The translations under genes were made by a program, and so were the position numbers. Below the pieces are notes generated by a model. The model did not search any database and was not told the origin of the DNA. It saw only the letters and a program-made list of their open reading frames with translations. Of a DNA stretch of 64,000 nucleotides, positions 39,997-56,504 are shown piece after piece. Position 1 is the stretch's first letter. Every line of letters begins with the position of its first letter. Source of the DNA: Clostridiales bacterium (GTDB lineage Bacteria; Bacillota; Clostridia; Christensenellales; Aristaeellaceae); assembly GCA_017569285.1 (NCBI GenBank), contig CP069419.1, positions 2,294,001 through 2,358,000 on the forward strand. Direction: 5' to 3'.

Positions 39997-40132
39997 TTTG
40001 CGGTAATGTGCGGTACTTGATCGCAGCACCGCAAACTTTATAGTCGCGACTCCACAACCGTGGAGCTCGCTCCTTAAAGTTTGAGAATGACGCTGACGAG
40101 ACTCCCCGCACTGCGGGTCGTCAGCGTCATTC
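39997..40132. repeat. Tandem hairpin element, type A, copy 1
   Basis: Three nested or adjacent stems. TTTGCGGT/ACCGCAAA spans 39997-40035. CAAACTTTA (40032-40040) pairs with TAAAGTTTG (40075-40083) and encloses CTCCAC/GTGGAG. GAATGACGCTGACGA (40085-40099) pairs perfectly with 40118-40132 and encloses CCCGC/GCGGG. GACTCC occurs at 40048 and 40100 just at the foot of each inner hairpin. The last arm overlaps the stop codon of guaA. A related copy lies at 48253-48344. Confidence 0.75.
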
Positions 40133-44799: not shown

Positions 44800-45969
44800 A
44801 TGTTCAGGGATGAGGTACGGGAACATCTTGAGCAGAAAATCATTCCGTTCTGGCAGAACCTGAAGGACGACGTGTCCGGCGGCTTTACCGGTTATGTGGG
44901 AGAAGACCTTCGCCCGGACAAAACGGCGGACAAGGGCTGCATCCTGAACAGCCGGATCCTGTGGACATTCTCCACCGCGGCCAAAGTGCTGAACCGGGAC
45001 GACCTGCGGGCGTACGCGGAACAGGCGTACCGCTTTGTGGACCGGTTTGAGGACCCGGAGAACGGCGGGGTGTACTGGTCGGTGACGTATGACGGAAAGC
45101 CGGCGGACACCACCAAGCATACCTATTGCCAGGCTTTTGCGGTGTACGGGCTGGCGGCCTATTACCGCCTCACGGGATGCCAGGGCGCGCTGCGGAAGGC
45201 GGTCCGGCTGTTCCGGGTGATCGAGGAGAAGTGCCGGGATGAAAAGGGCTACCTGGAAGCGCTGAACGCGGACTTTACCCCCGGCAGCAATGAAAAGCTG
45301 AGCGAGAACGGCGTGATGGCCTCCCGCACGATGAATACCCTGCTGCATGTGATCGAAGCCTATGCGGAGCTGTGCCGGGCGTATCCGGACGAGGAGGTCC
45401 GCATGGCCGGGGAAAAGGCACTGGAGCAGTGCCTGCACACGATTTACAATCCCGCGAAACGGCGGATGGAGGTTTTCTTTGACGACGACTTCCGCCCGCT
45501 GCTGGATATGCAGAGCTACGGGCACGACATCGAGGGCAGCTGGCTGCTGTGGGACGCGGCGGAAACGCTGCTGGAGCCGGAGAAGCTGAATGCGTACCAG
45601 GAGATGTGCCTGGACCTGGCGGAGAGCGCGACGGAACGCGGCTTTACGGACCACGGGCTGCACTATGAGATCGTGAACGGCGAGGTGAACACCGTCCGCG
45701 CCTGGTGGCCCCAGGCGGAAGCGCTGCTCGGCTTCGCGTTTGCCCTGGAGATCACCGGGGACGCGGTGTGGGCGCAGCGGATGCGCACGCAGTGGAACTA
45801 TATCCTGCGCGCGGTCGTCGATCCCCGGGAGGGGAGCGAATGGCTCAATGAGATCACCGAGGAAGGGGAATCCCTCCACAAGCCGCTGGCGGAGGAGTGG
45901 AAGTGCCCCTATCACAACGGGAGGATGTGCCTGCGGCTGTACCAGCTGGAACTGCCGGAGGGACTCTAA
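44800..45969 (+). CDS. Cellobiose 2-epimerase (AGE superfamily)
   Basis: A 389-residue enzyme, the same length as the Ruminococcus albus enzyme. It epimerises the reducing glucose or mannose of beta-1,4 disaccharides; in mannan pathways it turns mannobiose into mannosyl-glucose, the substrate for a GH130_1 phosphorylase. The alpha6/alpha6 barrel shows LNSRILWTFSTAAKV, KHTYCQAFAVYGLAAYY (His107) and later YGHDIEGSWLLWDAA and WWPQAEALLGF. It has its own promoter and operator inside the operon. Confidence 0.92.
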   Translation: MFRDEVREHLEQKIIPFWQNLKDDVSGGFTGYVGEDLRPDKTADKGCILNSRILWTFSTAAKVLNRDDLRAYAEQAYRFVDRFEDPENGGVYWSVTYDGKPADTTKHTYCQAFAVYGLAAYYRLTGCQGALRKAVRLFRVIEEKCRDEKGYLEALNADFTPGSNEKLSENGVMASRTMNTLLHVIEAYAELCRAYPDEEVRMAGEKALEQCLHTIYNPAKRRMEVFFDDDFRPLLDMQSYGHDIEGSWLLWDAAETLLEPEKLNAYQEMCLDLAESATERGFTDHGLHYEIVNGEVNTVRAWWPQAEALLGFAFALEITGDAVWAQRMRTQWNYILRAVVDPREGSEWLNEITEEGESLHKPLAEEWKCPYHNGRMCLRLYQLELPEGL

Positions 45970-45993
45970 TATATCATCAGGGAGACAAAACCA

Positions 45994-47007
45994 GTGAAGA
46001 GACCAACCATGAGGGACATCGCGAAGGCCGTCGGGACCAGCGCGGTGACCGTATCCAAGGCCATGGCCGGAAAACCGGGCATGAGCGACAAGCTGCGGGC
46101 GAAAATCCTGAAGAAAGCCGCGGAGATGGGATACGAATATCCCGGCACGGATCGTGTGGTGCTGCGGCAGCACCTGGACATCGGCGTGCTGATTCCGGAC
46201 CGGTATTTTGAAACGGAATCCTTCTACGCCCAGATGTACAAGAAGCTGATCCAAAAGCTGAGCGAGCAGGGACATTTCGGCCTGCTGGAGATCCTGAGCG
46301 CGGAGGATGAGGAGAAGCTGGTTCCGCCGATGCTCATCCGCAGTGGAAGGGTGGACGGCATGATCCTGCTGGGCGAGCCGTCCAAGGCATACTACCGCAT
46401 GATCGCGCAGCAGAACACGCCGGTGGTCTTCCTGGACTTCTATGACGAGCACGGCAGCGCGGACGCGCTGGTCGGTGACAACCTCTACGGCTGCTACCGC
46501 CTGACCAGCCACCTGATCCGCATCGGGCACCGGAAGATCGGCTACGTCGGCAGCGTGCGGGCCACGAGCAGCATCATGGACCGCTTCCTCGGGTACTACC
46601 GGGCGATGCTGACGCACAACCTGCCGGTGCGGCCGGACTGGATCATCCCGGACCGGAAGGACAACGGCGAGCTGATCCCGATTGAACTGCCGGAAGAGCT
46701 TCCGACCGCCTTCGTGTGCAACTGCGACGTGGTGGCCATGGCCCTGATCCGCGCGCTCAATGAGCACGGATACCGGGTGCCGGAGGACGTTTCGGTGACC
46801 GGTTTCGACGATTTCGTGACCGGGCCGGAACCGGAGATCCGCCTGAGTACCTTCAAGATCAACACGCCCGCCATGATCGAACTGGCGGTGAAGACGATGG
46901 CCGAGCGCTGCAGCGGCGCGCACGGCCCCTTCGGCCGCACGGTTATCAGCGGCCAGCCGGTCTACCGGGATTCGGAAATCCCGCTGGAGACATCAATTGA
47001 GGATTGA
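45994..47007 (+). CDS. LacI family regulator of the mannan locus
   Basis: A 337-residue LacI-type protein. The helix-turn-helix is TMRDIAKAVGTSAVTVSKAM (residues 5-24), followed by a sugar-binding domain. The start is a GTG with AGGGAG upstream; an ATG at 46009 is an alternative. It lies in the operon with the epimerase and probably recognises the GTTAAC-containing operators at 41415 and 44765. Confidence 0.92.
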   Translation: MKRPTMRDIAKAVGTSAVTVSKAMAGKPGMSDKLRAKILKKAAEMGYEYPGTDRVVLRQHLDIGVLIPDRYFETESFYAQMYKKLIQKLSEQGHFGLLEILSAEDEEKLVPPMLIRSGRVDGMILLGEPSKAYYRMIAQQNTPVVFLDFYDEHGSADALVGDNLYGCYRLTSHLIRIGHRKIGYVGSVRATSSIMDRFLGYYRAMLTHNLPVRPDWIIPDRKDNGELIPIELPEELPTAFVCNCDVVAMALIRALNEHGYRVPEDVSVTGFDDFVTGPEPEIRLSTFKINTPAMIELAVKTMAERCSGAHGPFGRTVISGQPVYRDSEIPLETSIED

Positions 47008-47015
47008 TGGTCTCC
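46986..47015 (+). terminator. Hairpin over the end of the LacI gene
   Basis: GGAGACATCAAT pairs with ATTGAT and GTCTCC (one bulged G). It includes the LacI stop codon and is followed, 16 bases later, by ATTTTT. Weak terminator. Confidence 0.5.
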
Positions 47016-47038
47016 ACCCAATATATTTTTAGGAGATT

Positions 47039-47139
47039 CCGCGTCTGCGGACGCGGCCAGGGCTTTCCTTTTATTTGACGCTTAAACCGCCTTCATCCGC
47101 CACTGGCGGCGGCGGTATAAGCGCCCCGGACCTTCGGTT
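47039..47139 (+). ncRNA. Structured leader element, type B, copy 1
   Basis: CCGCGTC-TGCG-GACGCGG (47039-47056) is followed by CCAGGGC (47057-47063), which can close with GCCCCGG (47123-47129) around a nested hairpin (CGCTTA...CCGCC...CCGCC-ACT-GGCGG-C-GGCGG...TAAGCG, 47079-47123), then ACCTTCGGTT. The same frame of stems recurs at 54141-54191 with compensatory changes and without the nested insert. It sits about 60 bases upstream of the first GH130 gene. Confidence 0.7.
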
Positions 47140-47197
47140 GGATACTTATTTGTAATTTCGAATTAACCGTAAAATGAATTCAGGAGGAAGAAGAAAT

Positions 47198-48229
47198 ATG
47201 AGCAAGGTAAAGATGATCAATGTGGACGCGCTGCCGAACATTCCCTGGCAGGACCGGCCGGCGGACCTGAAGACGGAAAGCCCGGTATGGCGCTATTCCG
47301 AAAACCCGGTGATGGGCCGCAACCCCACGCCGGCCATCGCGCGGATTTTCAACAGCGCCGTGGTGCCGTGGGAAGACGGCTTCATCGCGGTGCTTCGCGG
47401 CGAGCAGATCAACGGTGTTCCCTATGTCTACCTCGGACATTCGAAGGACGGCATCCACTGGGACGTGGAAAAGGAAAAGGTGCCCTTCACCGATGAGAAC
47501 GGCAACCCGAAGATGCCTAACTACGCGTATGACCCCCGCCTGGTGAAGGTGGAGGATACCTATTACATCATCTGGTGCGGCGATTTCTACGGCGCGTCCA
47601 TCGGCATGGCGAAGACGAAGGACTTCAAGACCTTCACCCGGCTGGAGAATCCCTTCATTCCCTTCAACCGCAACGCGGTGCTGTTTCCCCGGAAGATCAA
47701 CGGCACCTACAAGCTGCTGAGCCGCCCCTCCGACAGCGGCCACACCCCCTTCGGCGACATCTTCCTGAGCGAGAGCCCGGACATGGTGTACTGGGGCAAG
47801 CACCGCCACGTGATGGGCAGCGGCGGGGAATGGTGGCAGGGTGTCAAGATCGGTGCCGGCGCGGCCCCGATTGAGACCAGTGAAGGCTGGCTGATGTTCT
47901 ACCACGGCGTGGCCACCACCTGCAACGGCTTTGTGTACTCCATGGGTGCCGCGATCCTGGACATCAATGAGCCCAGCAAGGTGCTGTACCGCTGCGCGAA
48001 CCACCTGCTGACGCCGGAAGAGCCTTACGAGACCACCGGCTTTGTGCCGAACGTGGTGTTCCCCTGCGCGACGCTGCAGGACGGCGAGACCGGGCGCATC
48101 GCGATCTACTACGGCGCGGCCGATACCAATGTTGGCCTGGCGTTCACGACAGTGGATGATGTGGTGAAGTACATCAAGGAGCACAGTGTCCTCCATTACG
48201 GTGACGACGTCGCGGTTCATAACTATTGA
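47198..48229 (+). CDS. Beta-1,4-manno-oligosaccharide phosphorylase, GH130_2-like
   Basis: A 343-residue five-bladed beta-propeller of GH130. It uses phosphate to cut manno-oligosaccharides and release mannose 1-phosphate. Asp112 in YAYDPRLVK is the catalytic acid. ENPVMGRNPTPAIARIFNS and GAGAAPIETSEGWLMFYHG are typical of the shorter GH130_2 branch. AGGAGGAAG supports the ATG at 47198. A structured leader (type B) lies just upstream. Confidence 0.9.
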   Translation: MSKVKMINVDALPNIPWQDRPADLKTESPVWRYSENPVMGRNPTPAIARIFNSAVVPWEDGFIAVLRGEQINGVPYVYLGHSKDGIHWDVEKEKVPFTDENGNPKMPNYAYDPRLVKVEDTYYIIWCGDFYGASIGMAKTKDFKTFTRLENPFIPFNRNAVLFPRKINGTYKLLSRPSDSGHTPFGDIFLSESPDMVYWGKHRHVMGSGGEWWQGVKIGAGAAPIETSEGWLMFYHGVATTCNGFVYSMGAAILDINEPSKVLYRCANHLLTPEEPYETTGFVPNVVFPCATLQDGETGRIAIYYGAADTNVGLAFTTVDDVVKYIKEHSVLHYGDDVAVHNY

Positions 48230-48520
48230 TAACTTCCCCTTCCCCTGCTCCGCACCCTCAATAGTCGCAACTCCACACTGTGGAGACTGCTCCTTTTCGG
48301 GTGACCTCACCACCGACGAAACTCCTGCCAATGGCAGTCGTCGGCGGTTCGCCCCCTTCCCCGCAAACAAACAGGCAGCAGTTTGATGTTGGCTGATGCG
48401 GGGACGGGGATTAGTTAGGGGTGGGGCTTCGCCCCACAGCCCTTCCGTGGACATGCTGCTTGATTTGCAGTACAGGCGGGCTTTGTTTTGATAAAAACAG
48501 GCAGAAAGAAAGGTTTTGCC
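48230..48520. other. Multi-hairpin intergenic region between two GH130 genes
   Basis: After the type A element (48253-48344) come CCCCGCA/TGCGGGG arms (around 48356-48402) and a TGGGGC-TTC-GCCCCA hairpin (around 48422-48436). No coding sequence seen; the next gene has only AGAAAGG as ribosome-binding site. Confidence 0.6.
48253..48344. repeat. Tandem hairpin element, type A, copy 2
   Basis: Unit 1 has arms CACCC and GGGTG (48253-48303) around CTCCAC-ACT-GTGGAG. Unit 2 has arms CCGACGA and TCGTCGG (48313-48344) around CTGCC-AAT-GGCAG. AACTCC occurs at 48269 and 48320. ATAGTCGC and GCTCCTT of unit 1 are identical to copy 1 at 40041-40075. Confidence 0.75.
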
Positions 48521-49699
48521 ATGAGAAGCAGAAGTTTTGATTCCCTGATGGAAGCCTACGAGCGGCTGCTGGCGCGGCCGAACCCGGCGGACGAGCATTT
48601 CTACAACGGGCTGTACATCCGCTACCGGAACCCGGTGCTGACGCGGGAGCATATCCCGCCCTTCTGGATGTACGACGCGAACCCGGATACCAATCCCTTC
48701 ATGATGCAGCGGCTCGGCGTCAACGCGACGATGAACAGCGGCGCCATCAAGCTGAACGGGAAGTACTGCATGGTGGTGCGCGTGGAAGGCGCGGACCGGA
48801 AGAGCTTCTTCGCCGTGGCGGAAAGCGACAAACCCACCGAGGGCTTCCGCTTCCGGGATTACCCGGTGATCCTGCCGGACACGGAAAAGCAGGAGACCAA
48901 CGTATACGACATGCGGCTGACGCAGCATGAGGACGGCTGGATCTACGGCGTGTTCTGCTCCGAGAGCAAGGACGAAAACAACCCGGACCTTTCCGCGGCG
49001 GTGGCCGCGGCCGGCATTGTCCGGACGAAGGACCTGGAAAATTGGGAACGCCTGCCGAACCTGAAGACCCTGCGCTCCCCGCAGCAGCGGAATGTGGCGC
49101 TGCATCCGGAATTCGTGGACGGGAAGTACGCGTTCTATACCCGCCCGATGGACGACTTTATCGAGACCGGAAGCGGCGGCGGTATCGGCTTCGGCCTGTG
49201 CGACGACATCACGCATCCCGTGATTGACGAGGAGAAGATCCTTTCCCGCCGGAAGTACCATACGATTACCGAGAGCAAGAACGGCGCCGGCGCGGTGCCG
49301 ATCCGCACGGACCGGGGCTGGATCCATATCGCCCACGGCGTGCGCAACACGGCCGCGGGACTTCGGTATGTGCTGTATGCCTTTGCCACCGACCTGAAGA
49401 ATCCGTCGAAGATTATCGCGGAGCCGGGCGGACTGCTGCTGGGACCGCTGGGGCGCGAACGCACCGGCGACGTGAGCAACGTGGTGTTCACCAACGGCGC
49501 CATCGCGGATGACGACGGCAAGGTGTATATCTACTATGCCTCCTCCGATACCCGGATGCATGTGGCGGAGACCGACGTGGACCGCCTGACTGACTATGTG
49601 TTCAACACGCCGGAGGATCCGCTGCGCAGCTCGGACTGCGTGCGGCAGCGGGCGGAGCTGATCCGGAAGAACCTGGAATACCTGAAGAACAGGGGATAA
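48521..49699 (+). CDS. 4-O-beta-D-mannosyl-D-glucose phosphorylase, GH130_1-like
   Basis: A 392-residue GH130 enzyme that cleaves mannosyl-glucose into mannose 1-phosphate and glucose. Asp130 in NVYDMRLTQ corresponds to Asp131 of the Bacteroides fragilis enzyme, and the length agrees. It is the natural partner of the epimerase at 44800. The ATG at 48521 is favoured over an upstream start at 48488; the ribosome-binding site AGAAAGG is moderate. Nine bases separate it from the esterase gene. Confidence 0.9.
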
Positions 49700-49708
49700 G
49701 CCAGCCAT

Positions 49709-51220
49709 ATGGAAAAGAAGCTGAAGCCGTCCGCACTGTTTACGGACGGCGCGGTCCTGTGCCGCGGAAAGGAAATCCGCCTGTTCGGCGAGGCTGCCGA
49801 AGGTGTGTGTGTTTCCGCTGCCCTGACGGACGCGGCGGGAAAACTGCTGGCGCGGGGCGAAAGCACTGCGCGGGACGGGAAGTTCCTGATCAGCCTGCCA
49901 CCGCAGGAGGCGCAGGAAGGCTGCCGGATCACCTTTGCAGCCGGCGCGGAGACCGCGGAAGCGGGGGACATCGCCATCGGCGAAGTGTACCTGGCCGGCG
50001 GGCAGAGCAATATGGAACTGGAGCTGCAGTACGCGCTGGAAGGCCCGGAAACCCTTCCGGACCTGAAGGACCTGCTGCTGCGGTTTTTCAACGTGCCCAA
50101 ACAGGCGTATGACGACGGGAATGAGCCGCAGTTTGACCGCACCCGCTGGCACATGGCGGACCCGGAGAATGGAAAGTATAACAGCGCTGTGGCAACGCTC
50201 TTCGCGCGGAAAATGCGGGAAAAGCACCCGGATATCCCGCTGGGGATCATCGGATGCTACTGGGGCGGGACCTCCGTCACCTGCTGGATGGATGAGGATA
50301 CCCTGCGGGAAACCGGCGAGGGCGTACGGTATACCGAAAGGTATAACCGGGAGTGCGGCGAAAAGACCATCGAACAGTTTCTCCGGGAAGAAAAGGAATG
50401 GCGGCGCACGATGGACGCCTGGGACAAAACCGTCGCGGATTTCAAGGACGGGCATCCGGGATGCACGTGGCCGGAAATCACCGCGGCCTGCGGACCGTGC
50501 CCGTGGTTCCCGCCGAAGGGACCGGGGTCCCCGTTCCGGCCGCACGGCCTGGTGCATATGATGTTCGACAAGGTATGCCCGGTTTCGCTGACCGGTGTGC
50601 TGTATTACCAGGGCGAGGAAGACGCCGGGCAGACCGACCGCTATGATGAGCTGATGGCGGCCATGATCCGGCTGTGGCGGAAAAAGCTGCGCGCGCCGGA
50701 GCTGCCTTTCCTGTTTGTCCAGCTGCCGATGTGGCTGGACTTCGAAGCGGAGGATACCTTCCAGTGGGCGAAGACGCGGCTTTCGCAGGCCGCGGTCCGG
50801 GACGCCGTGCGGAATATCGGGATGATCTGCCTGCTGGATGAGGGCGAATACGGCAATATCCACCCGGTGAAGAAACGCCCGGTGGGCGAGCGGCTGGCGG
50901 AGCTGGCCCTGGCGATGGCCGGCGAAAACGGGGAAGTCTCCCCGCGGGCGCTGGACATGTACGCAGATGGGGATACCCTGGCGGTCCGCCTGACGCAGCC
51001 GGTGAAAACATCCGACGGGGAGGCCCCGCGCCTGCTGGAAATCGCCGGCGGGGACGGAAAGTTTGTTTCCGCGGAAGGCGAAATCAGCGGAAATACCCTG
51101 CGCCTGAAGGCGGAAGGCATCAAGCATCCGGTGAAGGCCCGGTACGCCTGGACGGACTGGTCCGACAAGGTGAACCTCTTCGGCGGAAACGGACTGCCGC
51201 TGGAACCGTTCAGCCTGTAA
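49709..51220 (+). CDS. SGNH-type carbohydrate acetylesterase
   Basis: A 503-residue protein of the sialate O-acetylesterase-like SGNH group. Ser100 in AGGQSNMELE and His385 in NIHPVKKRP are the catalytic pair; GVLYYQGEEDAGQT is the third block. N- and C-terminal beta domains frame the catalytic core. No signal peptide, so it would remove acetyl groups from imported acetylated manno-oligosaccharides, as intracellular esterases do in the Roseburia mannan locus. The CAZy family is not assigned. Confidence 0.85.
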   Translation: MEKKLKPSALFTDGAVLCRGKEIRLFGEAAEGVCVSAALTDAAGKLLARGESTARDGKFLISLPPQEAQEGCRITFAAGAETAEAGDIAIGEVYLAGGQSNMELELQYALEGPETLPDLKDLLLRFFNVPKQAYDDGNEPQFDRTRWHMADPENGKYNSAVATLFARKMREKHPDIPLGIIGCYWGGTSVTCWMDEDTLRETGEGVRYTERYNRECGEKTIEQFLREEKEWRRTMDAWDKTVADFKDGHPGCTWPEITAACGPCPWFPPKGPGSPFRPHGLVHMMFDKVCPVSLTGVLYYQGEEDAGQTDRYDELMAAMIRLWRKKLRAPELPFLFVQLPMWLDFEAEDTFQWAKTRLSQAAVRDAVRNIGMICLLDEGEYGNIHPVKKRPVGERLAELALAMAGENGEVSPRALDMYADGDTLAVRLTQPVKTSDGEAPRLLEIAGGDGKFVSAEGEISGNTLRLKAEGIKHPVKARYAWTDWSDKVNLFGGNGLPLEPFSL

Positions 51221-51254
51221 ACTGAGAACAACCCTGACGAGAGGGGCTGCCTGT

Positions 51255-53633
51255 ATGAAAAAACTGAATCTGTGCGGAACATGGGAAATGACCGGGGAGG
51301 ACGGACACAGCTTTCCGTCCGAAGTGCCGGGCAGCGTACTGAATACCCTGCTGGAGCACGGGGAAATTCCCGATCCGTTTGACGGAATGAATGAGTTCAC
51401 CGCCTGTGCCGAAACCCGGCGCAGGTGGTGTTTTGCGCGTTCCTTCCGCGTGACCGCGGAAGAACTTGCACATGCGCACGCGGACCTGGTGTTTGAGGGG
51501 CTGGATACCCTGGCGGCGGTGGAGGTGAACGGGCAGGAAACTGCCCGCACGGACAACATGCACCGCACCTGGCGCTTCCCGGTGAAGGAACTGCTGAAGG
51601 AAGGGGAAAACAGCATCCGCATATCCTTTGATCCCGCGATGGACTATGTGGAAAACGCGGCGAAGGAAAACCCGGAGGTATCCTGGGACGGCGGAAGCGA
51701 GCTGAAGGGCACCGGCTTCCTGCGCAAGGCACACTACATGTTCGGCTGGGACTGGGGCCCCCGGCTTCCGGACGCCGGCATCTGGCGCCCGTGCCGGATT
51801 GAGTTTTACGACAGCCGCCTGGAGGACATCCGCATCCGCCAGGTGCACAGCGAAAACCGCGCGGACCTGGAAGTCTGTATAGAAACCGGCGCGGAACGGG
51901 TATCCCTGGAGCTGCTGGACCCGGACGGCAATCCCGCAGCCGCCGCGGAAGGAATGCCCGGGGAAACCATCCGACTCACCGTGGAGAACCCGCGGCTATG
52001 GTGGCCGAACGGCCTGGGCAGCCAGCCGCTGTATACCCTGAAGGCGGCCGCCCTCACCGGCGGAAAGGCGGAAGACGAAAAGACCCTGCGCGTGGGCTTG
52101 CGGACGATGACCGTTTCCCGGAAGAAGGACGAATGGGGCGAAAGCTTCGCCCTGTGCTGCAACGGGGTGGACTTCTTCGCCATGGGCGGGGACTACATCC
52201 CGGAGGACAACCTGCTTTCCCGGGTGACGAGGGAGAAGACGGAACAGCTGCTGAAGGACTGCCGGGACTGCCATTTCAATTCCATCCGCGTATGGGGCGG
52301 CGGCATCTATCCGGATGAGACGTTCTTTGACCTGTGCGATGAGATGGGACTGGTGGTATGGCAGGACCTGATGTTCGCCTGCAACACCTACAAGCTGACG
52401 GACGCTTTCCGGGAGAGCATTGCCCGGGAGGCGGAGGACAACATCCGCCGCTTCCGGCACCACGCGTCCCTGGGGCTCATCTGCGGCAACAACGAGATGG
52501 AAACCGCCTGGCTCAGCTGGGGCGGGGTGAAGGACCAGCCGGAATACCTGAAGCAGGATTACCTGGAGCAGTTTGAGCACCTGCTGAAGGACGTATGCGC
52601 GAAGGAAGCGCCGGACGTGTTCTACTGGCCGTCTTCGCCGTCCTCCGGCGGCGGGTTTGACGACCCGAACAGCCTGGACCGGGGCGACGTGCACGACTGG
52701 TCTGTGTGGCACGGGCGGCGGCCCTTCTCGGATTTCACGGAGCGGTATCCGCGGTTCTGCTCGGAGTTCGGCTTTGAGTCGTTCCCCCGCATGGATACGC
52801 TGAAGACCTTTGTGCATGAGGAACGGGAGATGAATCCCTTCTCTAGGGTGATGGAAAGCCACCAGAAGTGCCGCAGCGGCAACGCGACAACGCTGTATTA
52901 CCTGAGCCAGACGCTGCGCTACCCCTTCTCCATGGAGAAGCTGGCCCACGCGAGCCAGTGGCTGCAGGCGGAGGCGGTGCGCGCGGGCGTGGAACACTGG
53001 CGGCGGAACCGCGGCCGGTGCATGGGCGCGATTTACTGGCAGGTAAATGACTGCTGGCCGGTGGCCAGCTGGGCGAGCATCGACTCCCTGGGCCGGTGGA
53101 AGGCCCTGCAGTACCGGGCACGGCATTTCTTCGCGCCGACGGCGGTCACGCTGTGCCGCGGGGAAAACGGATATACGGTCCATGTGACCAATGAGCGGCG
53201 GGAGCCTTTCCGGGGTACCGCGCAGTGCGTGGTCCGGGACGATGAAGGCCGGAAGCTCCGCGAGCTCCGGCTGGAAGCGGACTGCCCGGCAATGGCCAGC
53301 GTGAAGGCCGGCGAAGTCCTGCCGGAAGGCGGGGAAGAGCCGGAGATCGTGCAGTGCGTCCTGCTGGACGGGGATGGAAACCCCGTGAGCGAATGCATGG
53401 AACTGGGCACGCTGCCGAAGTATTTCCCCTTCCGGGAGCCGAAGATCCGGATGATCCGCTCGGGCCGGCAGGTCACCCTGCAGGCGGACACCTTCTGCAC
53501 GGGCGTGGAGCTGCAGGCCGGGGAGGCAAGGTTCTCGGATAACTGGCTGACGCTGTATCCCGGGGAAGCCCGGACGGTAACCGCGGACCGGGATTTCAGG
53601 GAAGATGAACTGCGGGTACTCTGGCTGGAATAA
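51255..53633 (+). CDS. Beta-mannosidase, GH2
   Basis: A 792-residue GH2 enzyme. GWDWGPRLPDAGIW is the beta-mannosidase signature. Glu414 (acid/base, in CGNNEMETAW) and Glu504 (nucleophile, in FCSEFGFESFP) are present. It trims terminal mannose from the non-reducing end of imported oligosaccharides. No signal peptide. Last gene of the mannan operon; a new promoter follows about 30 bases later. Confidence 0.93.
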   Translation: MKKLNLCGTWEMTGEDGHSFPSEVPGSVLNTLLEHGEIPDPFDGMNEFTACAETRRRWCFARSFRVTAEELAHAHADLVFEGLDTLAAVEVNGQETARTDNMHRTWRFPVKELLKEGENSIRISFDPAMDYVENAAKENPEVSWDGGSELKGTGFLRKAHYMFGWDWGPRLPDAGIWRPCRIEFYDSRLEDIRIRQVHSENRADLEVCIETGAERVSLELLDPDGNPAAAAEGMPGETIRLTVENPRLWWPNGLGSQPLYTLKAAALTGGKAEDEKTLRVGLRTMTVSRKKDEWGESFALCCNGVDFFAMGGDYIPEDNLLSRVTREKTEQLLKDCRDCHFNSIRVWGGGIYPDETFFDLCDEMGLVVWQDLMFACNTYKLTDAFRESIAREAEDNIRRFRHHASLGLICGNNEMETAWLSWGGVKDQPEYLKQDYLEQFEHLLKDVCAKEAPDVFYWPSSPSSGGGFDDPNSLDRGDVHDWSVWHGRRPFSDFTERYPRFCSEFGFESFPRMDTLKTFVHEEREMNPFSRVMESHQKCRSGNATTLYYLSQTLRYPFSMEKLAHASQWLQAEAVRAGVEHWRRNRGRCMGAIYWQVNDCWPVASWASIDSLGRWKALQYRARHFFAPTAVTLCRGENGYTVHVTNERREPFRGTAQCVVRDDEGRKLRELRLEADCPAMASVKAGEVLPEGGEEPEIVQCVLLDGDGNPVSECMELGTLPKYFPFREPKIRMIRSGRQVTLQADTFCTGVELQAGEARFSDNWLTLYPGEARTVTADRDFREDELRVLWLE

Positions 53634-53663
53634 GGCGGTACGAACAAAAAACAACGGAAACCG

Positions 53664-53692
53664 TTGACAAGCAACGGGGAAAAGCGTAAACT
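53664..53692 (+). promoter_or_regulatory. Promoter of the T-box transcript
   Basis: TTGACA (53664-53669), 17-base spacer, TAAACT (53687-53692). Transcription would start near 53699, exactly where stem I of the T-box begins. Confidence 0.8.
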
Positions 53693-53699
53693 CCCGTTA

Positions 53700-53969
53700 A
53701 AGGCTTTGAAGGAGAGGGCAACAGGAATTCGGCCATCAGAGACGCGGCGGTTGGTGCGAGCCGCGGGAAGAACCTGTCAGCTGTCGCTCCGGAGCCGGAA
53801 GGAAGAAAGCGGAAACGCGAGTAGAGCCTTCCCGAACCAGCCGCGTAAGGGCAAAAGGGCTTGACGGAGCCTGAAGGGGCGGTTTTTCAGGAAACCGCAA
53901 TTTGAGTGGTACCGCGGGTATGATATTCCATGCTCGTCTCAAAGCAATCCTTTGAGACGGGCATTTTTT
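53700..53969 (+). promoter_or_regulatory. T-box riboswitch
   Basis: Stem I is readable: GGCTTT/GGAGCC base, a GAA kink, GGAG/CTCC, specifier loop, ACAGG/CCTGT, then an apical CGCGGC/GCCGCG stem with GGTTGGTGCGA loop. The T-box sequence TGGTACCGCGG is at 53907-53917, where TGGT would pair with a tRNA ending ACCA. The best specifier candidate is GTC (53783-53785, valine), just before a purine and the CTCC strand. Valine is an inference from position. A terminator ends it. Confidence 0.88.
53932..53969 (+). terminator. T-box regulated terminator
   Basis: GCTCGTCTCAAAG pairs with CTTTGAGACGGGC (one G-T pair) and is followed by ATTTTTT. It would form unless uncharged tRNA stabilises the antiterminator. 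Confidence 0.88.
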
Positions 53970-53980
53970 CATGCGGGATA

Positions 53981-54020
53981 TTGGAGGGCTTTCCGAGAGA
54001 TTGGGGGGCTTTCCGCAAGG
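53981..54020 (+). repeat. Tandem 20-base repeats
   Basis: TTGGAGGGCTTTCCGAGAGA and TTGGGGGGCTTTCCGCAAGG follow each other. The shared GGGCTTTCC also occurs in both type B elements. Confidence 0.7.
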
Positions 54021-54140
54021 AATCGCACGCGCACCGCGGGCGGGATCCCCGCCTCGCGCACCGCGCGCGGCAGCGCCCACCCCCTTCGGATCTCATAAGG
54101 ATTAAACTTTGAAACCGTTATTTAAATCTTTGAGAAGATT

Positions 54141-54191
54141 TCGCATCTGCGGATGCGACCAGGGCTTTCCGATCGCCCTGGACCTTCGGTT
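54141..54191 (+). ncRNA. Structured leader element, type B, copy 2
   Basis: TCGCATC-TGCG-GATGCGA (54141-54158), then CCAGGGC (54159-54165) closed by GCCCTGG (54175-54181), then ACCTTCGGTT, which leads directly into the AGGAGG of the next gene. Compared with 47039-47139 the first stem differs at two positions on each arm, and every change keeps pairing. Confidence 0.75.
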
Positions 54192-54206: not shown

Positions 54207-56504
54207 ATGGCACAGATGACGGGACTGAACTTCAAGATCCAGGAGATGGCACACCGGATCCGGGAACTGCGCGAGATTGAAAACCTCACGATTGCGGAGA
54301 TGGCCAGCAAAACCGGCGTGACGGAACAGGAATACATCGACTGCGAAATGGGCCGGTCAGACCTGAACTTCGCGTTCCTGTACCGCTGTGCGCTGGCGTT
54401 CGGCGTCGACGTCGGCGATATCATCGAGGGCTCCAGCCCGAACCTGAACTCCTTCACGGTGACCCGGAAGGGCGAAGGCCAGCGCATTGAGGAAGCCCAC
54501 GACATGATCTACTACAACATGGCGGCTTCCTTCCGGAACCGGATCGCGGAACCCCTGTACGTACAGGCGGCCTACAGCCCGGAAGCGGAGAAGGAGGATA
54601 TCAAGCTGACCACCCATGAAGGGCAGGAGTGCGATATCGTCATCGAGGGTTCCCTGAAGGTGCAGGTGGGCGAGCATATCAGCATCCTGTATCCCGGCGA
54701 CTCCATTTACTACGATTCCGGCACCCCGCACGGCATGATCGCCGTGGGCGGCAAGGACTGCCTGTTCTACGCAATCGTCCTGAACCCCACCGGCGCCCCG
54801 ATTCCGGAACTGACGCCGGAGAAGGCCATGCCCGGCACCGCCCTGCAGGAGTTCCCGGCGGAGAACGGCCGCACCCGTGTGTGGCACCGCTATGCCGACG
54901 TGGAAAAGGACGAGAACGGCACGCCAACGAAGATCACCTTCAAGAATACCGAGAAGTTCAACTTCGCCTTCGACGTCATCGACGCGATTGCGGACGAAGT
55001 GCCGAACAAGCTGGCCATGCTGCACCTGGACCGGGAGAAGAACGAACACCGGTTCACCTTCAACGATATGAAGCGCGCGTCCAACCGCTGCGCCAACTAC
55101 TTCAAGTCCCTGGGCATCAAAAAGGGCGACCGCGTGATGCTGGTGCTCAAGCGGCACTACCAGTTCTGGTTCTCCATCCTGGCGCTGGAGAAGATCGGCG
55201 CCATCGCGATTCCCGCCGTGGCCCAGCTGCAGGAGCATGACTTTGAATACCGCTTCAACGCCGCCGGCGTGAAGGCGATCATCTGCACCGCGGACGGGGA
55301 TACCGCCCACCAGGCCGACCTGGCCGCGAAGAACGCGCCGGGCCTGGAACTGAAACTGATCGTGAACGGCACGCGGGAAGGCTGGCACAACTTCGACGAG
55401 GAATACCAGATGTATTCCACCCATTACAACCGCACCGAGGATACCCCCTGCGGCGATGACCTGATGCTGATGTACTTCACCTCCGGCACCACAGGCTATC
55501 CGAAGATCGCGGCCCACAGCTACAAGCACCCGCTGGGCCACCTGCATACCGCAAAGTACTGGCACTGCGTGAACCCGAACGGCCTGCACCTGACGATTTC
55601 CGACACCGGCTGGGCCAAGGCCGGCTGGGGCAAGATTTACGGCCAGTGGCTGTGCGAGGCGGCAATCTTCGTATACGACTTCGATCGCTTCGACGCGGCG
55701 GATATCCTGCCGCTGTTTGCCCGGTACAATATCACCACCTTCTGCGCGCCGCCGACCATGTACCGCATGCTGTGCAAGCAGGACCTGAGCAAGTACGACC
55801 TGAGCTCCGTGACCCATGCCTCCAGCGCCGGCGAAGCGCTGAACGCGGAGGTTTACCGGCAGATCGAGAAGCAGACCGGCCTGCAGATCATGGAAGGCTT
55901 CGGCCAGACGGAAAGCACCATGATCATCGGCAACCTGGCCGGCGCGAACCACAAGCTGGGTTCCATGGGCAAGGTCGCCCCGATCTACCATGTGTGCCTG
56001 CTGGACGCGGACGGCAACCCCGTTCCCGACGGTACGCCGGGTGAGATCTGCGTGGATATCTCCAACGGTATCCCGATCGGCCTGTTCCGCGGCTATTACC
56101 GCGACGAGGAAAAGACGAAGGAAGTCATGCACGACGGCTGGTACCATACCGGCGACCTGGCCTGGTGCGATGAGGACGGCTTCTACTGGTACGTGGGCCG
56201 CGCGGACGACGTCATCAAGTCCAGCGGGTACCGCATCGGGCCGTTCGAAATCGAGAGCGTGATCATGGAGCTGCCCTACGTGCTGGAGTGCGGCGTGAGC
56301 GCGGCACCCGACGAGGTGCGCGGCCAGGTGGTCAAGGCCAGCATCGTGCTGACCAAGGGCACGGAGCCGACCGAAGAGCTGAAGAAGGAAATCCAGAACT
56401 ACGTCAAGCAGCACACCGCGCCGTACAAGTATCCCCGGATCGTGGTGTTCCGCGACGAGCTGCCCAAGACCGTCAGCGGCAAGATCCAGCGCGCGCTGCT
56501 GTAA
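54207..56504 (+). CDS. XRE-cupin-acyl-CoA synthetase fusion
   Basis: A 765-residue three-part protein. Residues 12-75 form an XRE helix-turn-helix (IRELREIENLTIAEMASKTG); about 115-195 a small cupin (His137, Glu141, PHGM at 174-177); from about 240 an AMP-binding enzyme of the medium-chain acyl-CoA synthetase type, with TSGTTGYPK from Thr425, EGFGQTEST, YVGRADDVIKSSGYRIGPFE and the C-terminal SGKIQRALL (Lys759). It would activate a carboxylic acid to its CoA ester, perhaps with DNA binding by the same chain. TAGGAGG supports the ATG at 54207. It lies behind a T-box and a type B element, an unusual combination. Confidence 0.9.
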   Translation: MAQMTGLNFKIQEMAHRIRELREIENLTIAEMASKTGVTEQEYIDCEMGRSDLNFAFLYRCALAFGVDVGDIIEGSSPNLNSFTVTRKGEGQRIEEAHDMIYYNMAASFRNRIAEPLYVQAAYSPEAEKEDIKLTTHEGQECDIVIEGSLKVQVGEHISILYPGDSIYYDSGTPHGMIAVGGKDCLFYAIVLNPTGAPIPELTPEKAMPGTALQEFPAENGRTRVWHRYADVEKDENGTPTKITFKNTEKFNFAFDVIDAIADEVPNKLAMLHLDREKNEHRFTFNDMKRASNRCANYFKSLGIKKGDRVMLVLKRHYQFWFSILALEKIGAIAIPAVAQLQEHDFEYRFNAAGVKAIICTADGDTAHQADLAAKNAPGLELKLIVNGTREGWHNFDEEYQMYSTHYNRTEDTPCGDDLMLMYFTSGTTGYPKIAAHSYKHPLGHLHTAKYWHCVNPNGLHLTISDTGWAKAGWGKIYGQWLCEAAIFVYDFDRFDAADILPLFARYNITTFCAPPTMYRMLCKQDLSKYDLSSVTHASSAGEALNAEVYRQIEKQTGLQIMEGFGQTESTMIIGNLAGANHKLGSMGKVAPIYHVCLLDADGNPVPDGTPGEICVDISNGIPIGLFRGYYRDEEKTKEVMHDGWYHTGDLAWCDEDGFYWYVGRADDVIKSSGYRIGPFEIESVIMELPYVLECGVSAAPDEVRGQVVKASIVLTKGTEPTEELKKEIQNYVKQHTAPYKYPRIVVFRDELPKTVSGKIQRALL

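Follow-up and report, generated by a model that had tools for sequence, protein, structure and literature searches.

A covarying hairpin element found twice in a Clostridiales genome is probably a member of a modular interspersed repeat family

The 64,000-nt stretch analyzed here (hereafter the window) belongs to the Clostridiales bacterium assembly GCA_017569285.1 (contig CP069419.1, positions 2,294,001 to 2,358,000 of the forward strand) and contains two copies of a structured element, each located 5' of a gene. A preliminary description had considered this element to be either an undescribed cis-acting RNA or a dispersed element. The copies, what may be left of older ones nearby, and the two downstream genes are arranged as follows, in window coordinates, S1 being the second stem of the element.

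47039..47056, + strand: copy 1, hairpin 1, CCGCGTC-TGCG-GACGCGG (arms CCGCGTC 47039-47045 and GACGCGG 47050-47056, loop TGCG), from sequence reading, folding and the covariation of hairpin 1 in the family.
47057..47137, + strand: copy 1, stem S1 CCAGGG..CCCCGG with insert and tail ACCTTCGG, the long form (CCAGGGCTTTCC 47057-47068; 55-nt insert with nested hairpins 47069-47123; CCCCGG 47124-47129; ACCTTCGG 47130-47137), from folding and a match to the covariance model R1.
47198..48229, + strand: gene 3' of copy 1, GH130 family (PF04041, E 2.8e-72).
53983..53995, + strand: fragment GGAGGGCTTTCCG, noted by eye, a possible remnant of another copy.
54003..54089 (about), + strand: degenerate long-form copy, GGGGGGCTTTCCG ... 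CCCCCTTCGG, recognized by eye with no model hit and common to the nearest relative, G015.
54141..54158, + strand: copy 2, hairpin 1, TCGCATC-TGCG-GATGCGA (arms TCGCATC 54141-54147 and GATGCGA 54152-54158), from sequence reading, folding and covariation.
54159..54181, + strand: copy 2, stem S1 CCAGGGC/GCCCTGG with loop TTTCCGATC, from sequence reading, folding and covariation.
54182..54189, + strand: copy 2, linker ACC followed by TTCGG (together ACCTTCGG), whose TCGG is able to pair with the loop CCGA as a pseudoknot.
54207..56504, + strand: gene 3' of copy 2, a fusion of helix-turn-helix (HTH), cupin and AMP-binding ligase domains (PF00501, PF13193, PF07883, PF12844).

The anatomy proposed in the preliminary description proved accurate. 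Hairpin 1 carries the TGCG loop in both copies and differs between them by two compensated pairs (C-G to T-A and G-C to A-T), both copies share CCAGGGCTTTCC and GGACCTTCGG behind this hairpin, and the 55-nt insert of copy 1, with its nested hairpins, occupies the place of the short loop TTTCCGATC of copy 2. S1 of copy 1 contains one A/C mismatch and CGA is absent from its loop. The exact 12-mers CCAGGGCTTTCC and GGACCTTCGGTT have their sole occurrences of the window in these two copies; with up to two mismatches they are found at 22 places (9.7 expected) and 14 places (5.8 expected), respectively, and a 42-nt direct repeat between the copies has an identity of 86%. Furthermore, both copies fold better than their shuffled counterparts, with z-scores for RNA of -2.8 (copy 1) and -3.6 (copy 2), where none of 200 shuffles was as good for either, and for DNA of -3.1 and -4.2, where 1 and 0 of 200 shuffles were as good.

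These copies are two among many. R1, a three-sequence covariance model built after a pattern search, was used on the own genome (G000) and on its relatives, and copy 1 is recovered by it at G000:C1:2341026-2341143 with an E value of 6.5e-15. Hairpin 1 is optional in the family, whose further parts are a stem S1 closed by GGC/GCC, a loop TTT[C/G]CGATC, a short linker and a terminal TTCG[G/C]; copies with stems of less than 5 bp or without TTCG[G/C] close behind the stem were dropped before most of the element counts given here. The ends of the element are sharp in 38 copies with hairpin 1 and 40 without, and in the home genus the conserved block stops abruptly at these ends, with no conserved outer sequence. 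The long form seen in copy 1 recurs in G017, G020, G031, G015 and G034 as R1 matches of 97-121 nt, copies occur in tandem in a head-to-tail array in G004:C43 (65-nt period), and in other genera two subtypes are arranged tail to tail in longer palindromic units (by eye). Such units were noted by eye in L098, L109, L119, L136, L150, L153 and other stretches, with the outer repeats GGTTCTTCACG../..CGTGAAGAACC or near-identical ones in L098, L109, L119 and L150 among others.

The sequence of S1 varies freely and its pairing is kept. When the family was anchored on the loop alone, TTCG[C/G] was present in the following window for 364 of 643 anchors against 5 of 106 reversed anchors, and positions 5-9 of S1 were Watson-Crick paired at frequencies of 0.93, 0.92, 0.87, 0.71 and 0.71, the shuffled means being 0.48, 0.37, 0.34, 0.36 and 0.30. 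In an alignment of 108 distinct copies, which is fitted to the model and therefore biased towards it, 96.8% of the cells are paired, 13 of the 18 pairs show two-sided changes, and none of 500 shuffles reaches the observed value on any of five measures. Hairpin 1 behaves alike, with 25 to 27 of 28 distinct arm pairs being Watson-Crick at each of six positions (shuffled means 11.5 to 20.7). The copies behind all these covariation statistics are not independent and their relatedness is uncorrected. Both stems thus covary and both window copies fold better than shuffles, in agreement with the earlier suggestion of a structured element under compensatory change.

The loop [C/G]CGA is able to pair with the tail TCG[G/C], which would make the element a pseudoknot. 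Loop and tail combine as C-G in 330 cases, as G-C in 18 and as mismatched partners in 16. This helix is 91.3% paired in the 108-copy alignment, with a two-sided change at one pair in one sequence, so that the evidence for its covariation is mostly that of the 18 G-C cases, and few lineages account for these. The linker in turn follows the stem: in one register, linker and 5' stem strand are complementary in parallel orientation at 335 of 432 positions (111 distinct stem/linker combinations), against a mean of 246.5 and a maximum of 264 in 300 shuffles, and the two neighboring registers stay under their shuffled maxima (188 against 195 and 289 against 290). Antiparallel pairing between linker and stem was rejected, since it was better in 1 of 96 distinct combinations and parallel pairing in 23, the other 72 being ties. 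The code reads as G opposite C and A opposite T or A, and its pyrimidine part is the code of the pyrimidine-motif triple helix. That the linker tracks the stem strand in this register suggests that it may form a triple helix with the stem, in a geometry predicted from the sequences.

A compact pseudoknot, a possible triple helix and the occasional head-to-tail array, as in G004:C43, recall the RNA of type III toxin-antitoxin systems, in which antitoxins such as ToxI are reported to be compact pseudoknot repeats. The ToxI-type antitoxin RNA presumably contains a triple helix as well. Unlike these antitoxins, the element is dispersed, with hundreds of copies that lie mostly outside arrays, and no toxin-like family is present in the 25 largest clusters of neighboring genes, the arrays not having been checked one by one; such an identity is hardly credible.

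A 27-nt pattern (up to 3 mismatches) occurs at 4 places in the own genome and its backward control at none. The covariance-model search of the genome and related Clostridia that the preliminary description had advised returned nine R1 hits at E<=1 in the own genome, five of them at E<=6.5e-15, corresponding to about eight loci, and hits in 28 of 100 relatives at E<=0.01, some of the weakest of which, e.g. that of G098 (E 0.002, L040), appear to be chance matches. Of 300 genomes of the family, 65 contain the exact 15-nt core, with 1 to 409 copies per genome, the highest count being that of G180 (409, 204+205), and its backward control gives 0 matches among the genomes listed. These counts are lower bounds because loop variants are missed: G058 has 49 R1 hits yet no exact core, and G029, with 44 R1 hits, lies outside the exact-core sample. 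Within the same genus, exact-core copies range from 0 to 132 and many genomes have none. In a class sample of 391 genomes only the own genome and G708 match the exact core, and since the two matches of G708 are without stem and tail, no genuine copy outside the family was found by exact core in this sample. Named carriers among the matches listed are mostly metagenome assemblies of Clostridia or Clostridiales, many from ruminant guts, and these matches also include a few unchecked single ones in other phyla.

Phages carry the element too. A 17-nt pattern is present in 49 stretches of viral contigs (L214-L262), and five unannotated phage records from human feces match copy 2 at 80-90% identity; plasmids gave no match at E<=0.01. 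Together with the eight or so loci of the own genome and the 65 family genomes, these phage contigs bear out the alternative of a dispersed element that had been left standing beside the RNA switch. In Rfam (release 15), no match was obtained in the window at gathering thresholds, and at E<=5 five matches fell between 46900 and 54300, none of them on copy 1 or 2 (a sub-threshold T-box adjoins copy 2), in line with the initial impression that no named riboswitch has this frame. A search of six loci at E<=1 gave four matches, all far under their gathering scores, and no paper on this repeat turned up among those listed by one open-access library. The family is real, then, without an Rfam name or a published description that we could find, and its fold is unusually rule-bound.

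Comparison of orthologous sites bears on whether the two copies act as leaders of their genes. Copy 1 is present 5' of the GH130 gene in 1 of the 30 loci read and absent from the 29 other best-matching loci; the nearest relative, G015, is devoid of it though the encoded protein is 100% identical over 343 aa. With copy 1 present at a single orthologous locus, its proposed membership in a class of cis-acting leaders is not supported. A further copy of the own genome lies antisense inside the 5' coding region (signal-peptide region) of a gene that is, by our own reading, a polysaccharide deacetylase, where the frame stays open, and no element was found at this site in the 19 other loci fetched, G015 included. 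At the copy-2 gene, 30 loci were read by eye (29 besides the own). G015 again lacks copy 2 and has only the older degenerate long form, whereas four relatives (G004, G005, G008 and G016) have a short version, hairpin 1 included, immediately 5' of the Shine-Dalgarno sequence and, like copy 2, at 0-2 nt from it. Copy 2 thus abuts the ribosome-binding site, as first described. G012 has a short version without hairpin 1, G039, G041 and G021 long or degenerate versions and G034 a degenerate one; the remaining loci appear empty, an automated flag on G006 being a chance match. The versions found in relatives may stem from one old insertion or from repeated hits. For copy 2 the leader reading is therefore weak: its absence in G015 speaks against it, and the similar short version at 4 of 29 other loci in its favor, so that the element may have a secondary local role at this gene. 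As an account of both copies, a cis-acting leader or riboswitch dedicated to the genes behind them draws on this shared position before one Shine-Dalgarno sequence, but copy 1 occurs at 1 of 30 loci and the other copies are mostly not 5' of related genes; we regard it as very improbable. Scattered as it is through some uncultured gut Clostridia and their phages, the family looks like a spreading repeat rather than a dedicated gene switch.

The orientation of the copies follows replication. The GC skew of the own chromosome, sampled in 22 stretches, reverses within 1.71-1.80 Mb and within 0.02-0.16 Mb, and all nine R1 hits agree with the sampled sign. In larger stretches fetched from five genomes, the G-rich strand carries 52 of 55 elements. 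When elements within 1 kb were grouped, 41 of 42 unmixed clusters followed replication (2 mixed ones were left out). Genes, as predicted with our own codon model, do so in 569 of 817 cases, and compared with this rate of 0.70 the clusters give P 4.9e-6. Elements between two genes of the opposite strand still followed the skew in 10 of 11 cases, tandem clusters included. This bias is above the 61-63% that PMC3049150 gives for BOX, RUP and SPRITE, which mirrors the coding bias. The structured strand would fold while single-stranded on the lagging-strand template, which would explain why copies point with the fork whatever the local gene direction, and some factor might recognize the hairpin or pseudoknot and move or copy the element into nearby single-stranded DNA. 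For IS608 and ISDra2 of the IS200/IS605 family, subterminal structures recognized on the lagging-strand template (PMC6006769) would give the orientation seen here.

A mobilizing enzyme was sought in 17 copy-bearing and 13 copy-free genomes, several of them incomplete. The Y1 transposase is present in 9 of the 17 genomes with copies and in 11 of the 13 without (Fisher P 0.12), and no Y1 match was obtained in G180 with its 409 copies, nor in G280, G108, G116, G263, G058, G052 and G031, several of which are incomplete. The C-terminal domain of TnpB exceeds its cut-off in none of the copy-bearing genomes and in one copy-free genome (G181, 0 copies). Y1 and TnpB were accordingly discarded as movers, neither having a positive association with copies. 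The 25 largest clusters of neighboring genes are headed by open frames across the repeats, ABC-type ATPases and phage genes. Since no mobilizing gene was found, we infer the mode of movement from orientation and structure alone.

Two transposase-driven origins have to be weighed in this light. Classical repetitive extragenic palindromic (REP) sequences or their paired forms (REPINs), moved by a REP-associated tyrosine transposase (RAYT, of the Y1 HUH type), would fit the hairpin repeats, the inverted pairs, the position at gene 3' ends, the lagging-strand logic and the Y1 match in 20 of the 30 genomes surveyed. Nevertheless, eight copy-bearing genomes, among them G180, are without Y1 match (several being incomplete), and no GTAG tag stands at the 5' boundary, which makes this origin quite improbable. 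Likewise, the repeat could be the internal cargo of palindromic units with terminal inverted repeats, i.e. a miniature inverted-repeat transposable element moved by a DDE transposase. The tail-to-tail subtype pairs enclosed by outer repeats in some family genomes and a related outer pair around a single copy in G029 (L030), all noted by eye, argue for it, and the outer repeats bear what we take to be a likeness to ISL3-type ends. The sharp end of the conserved block at the element in the home genus argues against it, and we consider it unlikely, though less so than the RAYT origin.

Gene ends are a preferred site in phages and in the home genus. An element was scored as lying at a stop when its distance to the stop codon of a long frame fell between -3 and +12 nt, and random positions served for comparison. 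Copies without hairpin 1 met a stop in this manner in 23 of 44 cases in phages (random 49 of 880) and in 19 of 40 in the same genus (26 of 800), and those with hairpin 1 in 7 of 14 (8 of 280) and 10 of 49 (37 of 980), respectively. Copies were thus found after stop codons, and also antisense in a gene and between genes of the opposite strand. Ten phage frames ending at an element were compared with PHROG: five match major head protein, a sixth the terminase small subunit and a seventh the major tail protein, and one of the three left unmatched is assigned to the terminase small subunit by Pfam. Of the 58 phage copies, 6 have a T5 run in the 20 nt behind the element, against 0-3 in six further windows of this length; of the 97 copies of the same genus, 12 have one (1-6 in the other windows). 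An intrinsic terminator, that is a G+C hairpin with a direct U-run, was rejected, the T-run being enriched but in a minority of copies.

Some few copies are followed by a repetition of the end of the gene that precedes them. Among 341 copies, 28 have direct flank repeats with a score of at least 15 (4 of 338 control pairs do), many of them being tandem units; in 10 copies the left repeat ends no more than 4 nt from the element, and as possible target-site duplications these repeats have no fixed length (18-87 nt). In L039 (1379-1673), a 48-nt gene end is found four times around element copies and a remnant, with many differences that are synonymous by eye, and in L023 (about 1430-1610) a gene 3' end is repeated after element copies.

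In a rival reading, the element would be a functional 3'-end RNA (mRNA stabilizer, processing site or partial terminator) kept by selection in host and phage genes, with its spread being secondary. In seven pairs of phage genes with homologous C-termini (E below 1e-23), including those for major head protein, terminase small subunit and major tail protein, the element lies at most 14 nt from the stop with stems that are different yet paired; the sense-strand enrichment past stops, the strong stem covariation and the somewhat enriched T5 runs point the same way. These seven come from a list of 35 pairs. Of the rest, one is the second frame of such a pair, one is bacterial (L118/L052) and has elements of different types at the same gene end, and the majority are frames across repeated flanks. 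On the other hand, the phage pairs were preselected for an intact stem and tail and do not tell how often stems break, recurrent insertion may have occurred, the antisense intragenic copies and those between opposite-strand genes still follow replication, many genomes of the same genus have no copy, and most copies are without T-run. We consider a primary 3'-end function possible, at clearly less than even odds.

Altogether, the sharp-ended copies, the covarying stems, the tail matched to both loop and stem, the species-specific presence, the orientation with replication in the measured genomes, the enrichment past stop codons in phage and home-genus copies and the occurrence in phages form the basis for regarding both window copies as members of a non-autonomous, modular interspersed repeat family of REP/BOX type, to which we assign a probability of roughly 0.7. 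The mechanism would most likely be a single-strand, fork-coupled spread together with a secondary use at gene 3' ends. There, a transcribed copy just past a stop would fold at the 3' end of the frame into a compact pseudoknot, possibly with a triple helix, which may slow decay or separate neighboring genes, and copies at such places may be tolerated or kept because of this RNA structure. Only tentatively, and as rather improbable in its full form, we propose a new class of repeats in which a triple-helix-pseudoknot unit would be propagated by the fork on the lagging-strand template without Y1, carried between hosts by phages and used as RNA 3'-end structure in both, its stem, loop and linker co-evolving.

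Several observations weigh against the interspersed-repeat interpretation. G034 provides 28 of the 41 agreeing clusters, so that most of the orientation data come from one genome; G029 has 4 clusters with replication, 1 against and 1 mixed, and G058 has 1 mixed. Among the enzyme families surveyed none was found to be the mobilizer, and none is obvious in the 25 largest neighbor clusters. The reverse transcriptase (RVT_1) is weakly associated with the copies (7 of the 17 genomes with copies and 1 of the 13 without; Fisher P 0.09) and is absent from the own genome, G180, G280, G108 and G263, thus from genomes with 409, 305 and 234 copies. Copies without hairpin 1 also approach a stop from the opposite strand more often than random positions do (10 of 42 in phages and 7 of 39 in the same genus), and enrichment at stops is slight in the named genomes (L094-L173; 4 of 54 and 5 of 65 against 3-4% at random). 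The phage homologs with different paired stems read more like a kept function than like a parasite. Finally, the intergenic flanks of copies 1 and 2 also differ between G000 and G015, and their sites are therefore no clean empty sites.

Among known repeats, the GTAG and CGTC REPs and REPINs share with the element short high-copy palindromes, inverted pairs (here in some genomes), the position at gene 3' ends, some intragenic copies and termini able to supply a stop codon; REPs that lie near the 3' ends of genes and provide stop codons have been described by Di Nocera et al., and CGTC REPs, like this element, are without known transposase (PMC3733652). The word stems Clostridi, Firmicutes and Ruminococc do not occur in the main text of that paper. 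The element is unlike REPs in its pseudoknot, its stem-tracking linker, its replication-tied orientation and its phage copies; in 38 copies the 5' boundary shows no GTAG but weakly conserved purines in front of TTTCG, and no fixed CGTC stands at either boundary. With pneumococcal BOX, RUP and SPRITE, which their authors consider parasitic, it has in common modularity, a patchy presence between related species and long and short forms (PMC3049150). Sequence and architecture are different from theirs, and the test against BOX covered modularity. The resemblance to IS200/IS605 noted above is limited by the eight copy-bearing genomes without Y1 match and by the fact that no coding element was seen. 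The family bears on the open problem of how repeat families spread without RAYT. Its many natural variants share one fold in which stem, loop and linker are tied together by an explicit rule of pairing, and their orientation with replication distinguishes spread at the DNA level from transcription. Copies past phage head and tail genes make it possible to test directly if repeats of this kind act on mRNA.

Further features of the window were noted around the copies. A T-box leader match (RF00230, 53697-53944; 84.5 bits, E 8.7e-18, under the gathering score of 93) is followed by a terminator-like hairpin, both 5' of the HTH-cupin-AMP-binding ligase fusion, and T-box-like sequence was seen in most relatives' regions 5' of this gene, which is possibly an unusual T-box target. 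Copy 2 thus stands behind a T-box match; one pneumococcal BOX lies between T boxes (PMC3049150). A second dispersed structured repeat, referred to as module M and with the core GTCGCAACTCCACACTGTGGAGCTTGCTCC, is present at about 40020-40130 and 48245-48370. It is also nested within members of the first family in L013, L014, L023, L036 and L073, and gave no Rfam match near cut-off in L013, L014 and L023. A carbohydrate locus (44800-53633) comprises a gene of the N-acetylglucosamine (GlcNAc) 2-epimerase family, LacI, two GH130-family genes, a SASA esterase and GH2 mannosidase-like genes.

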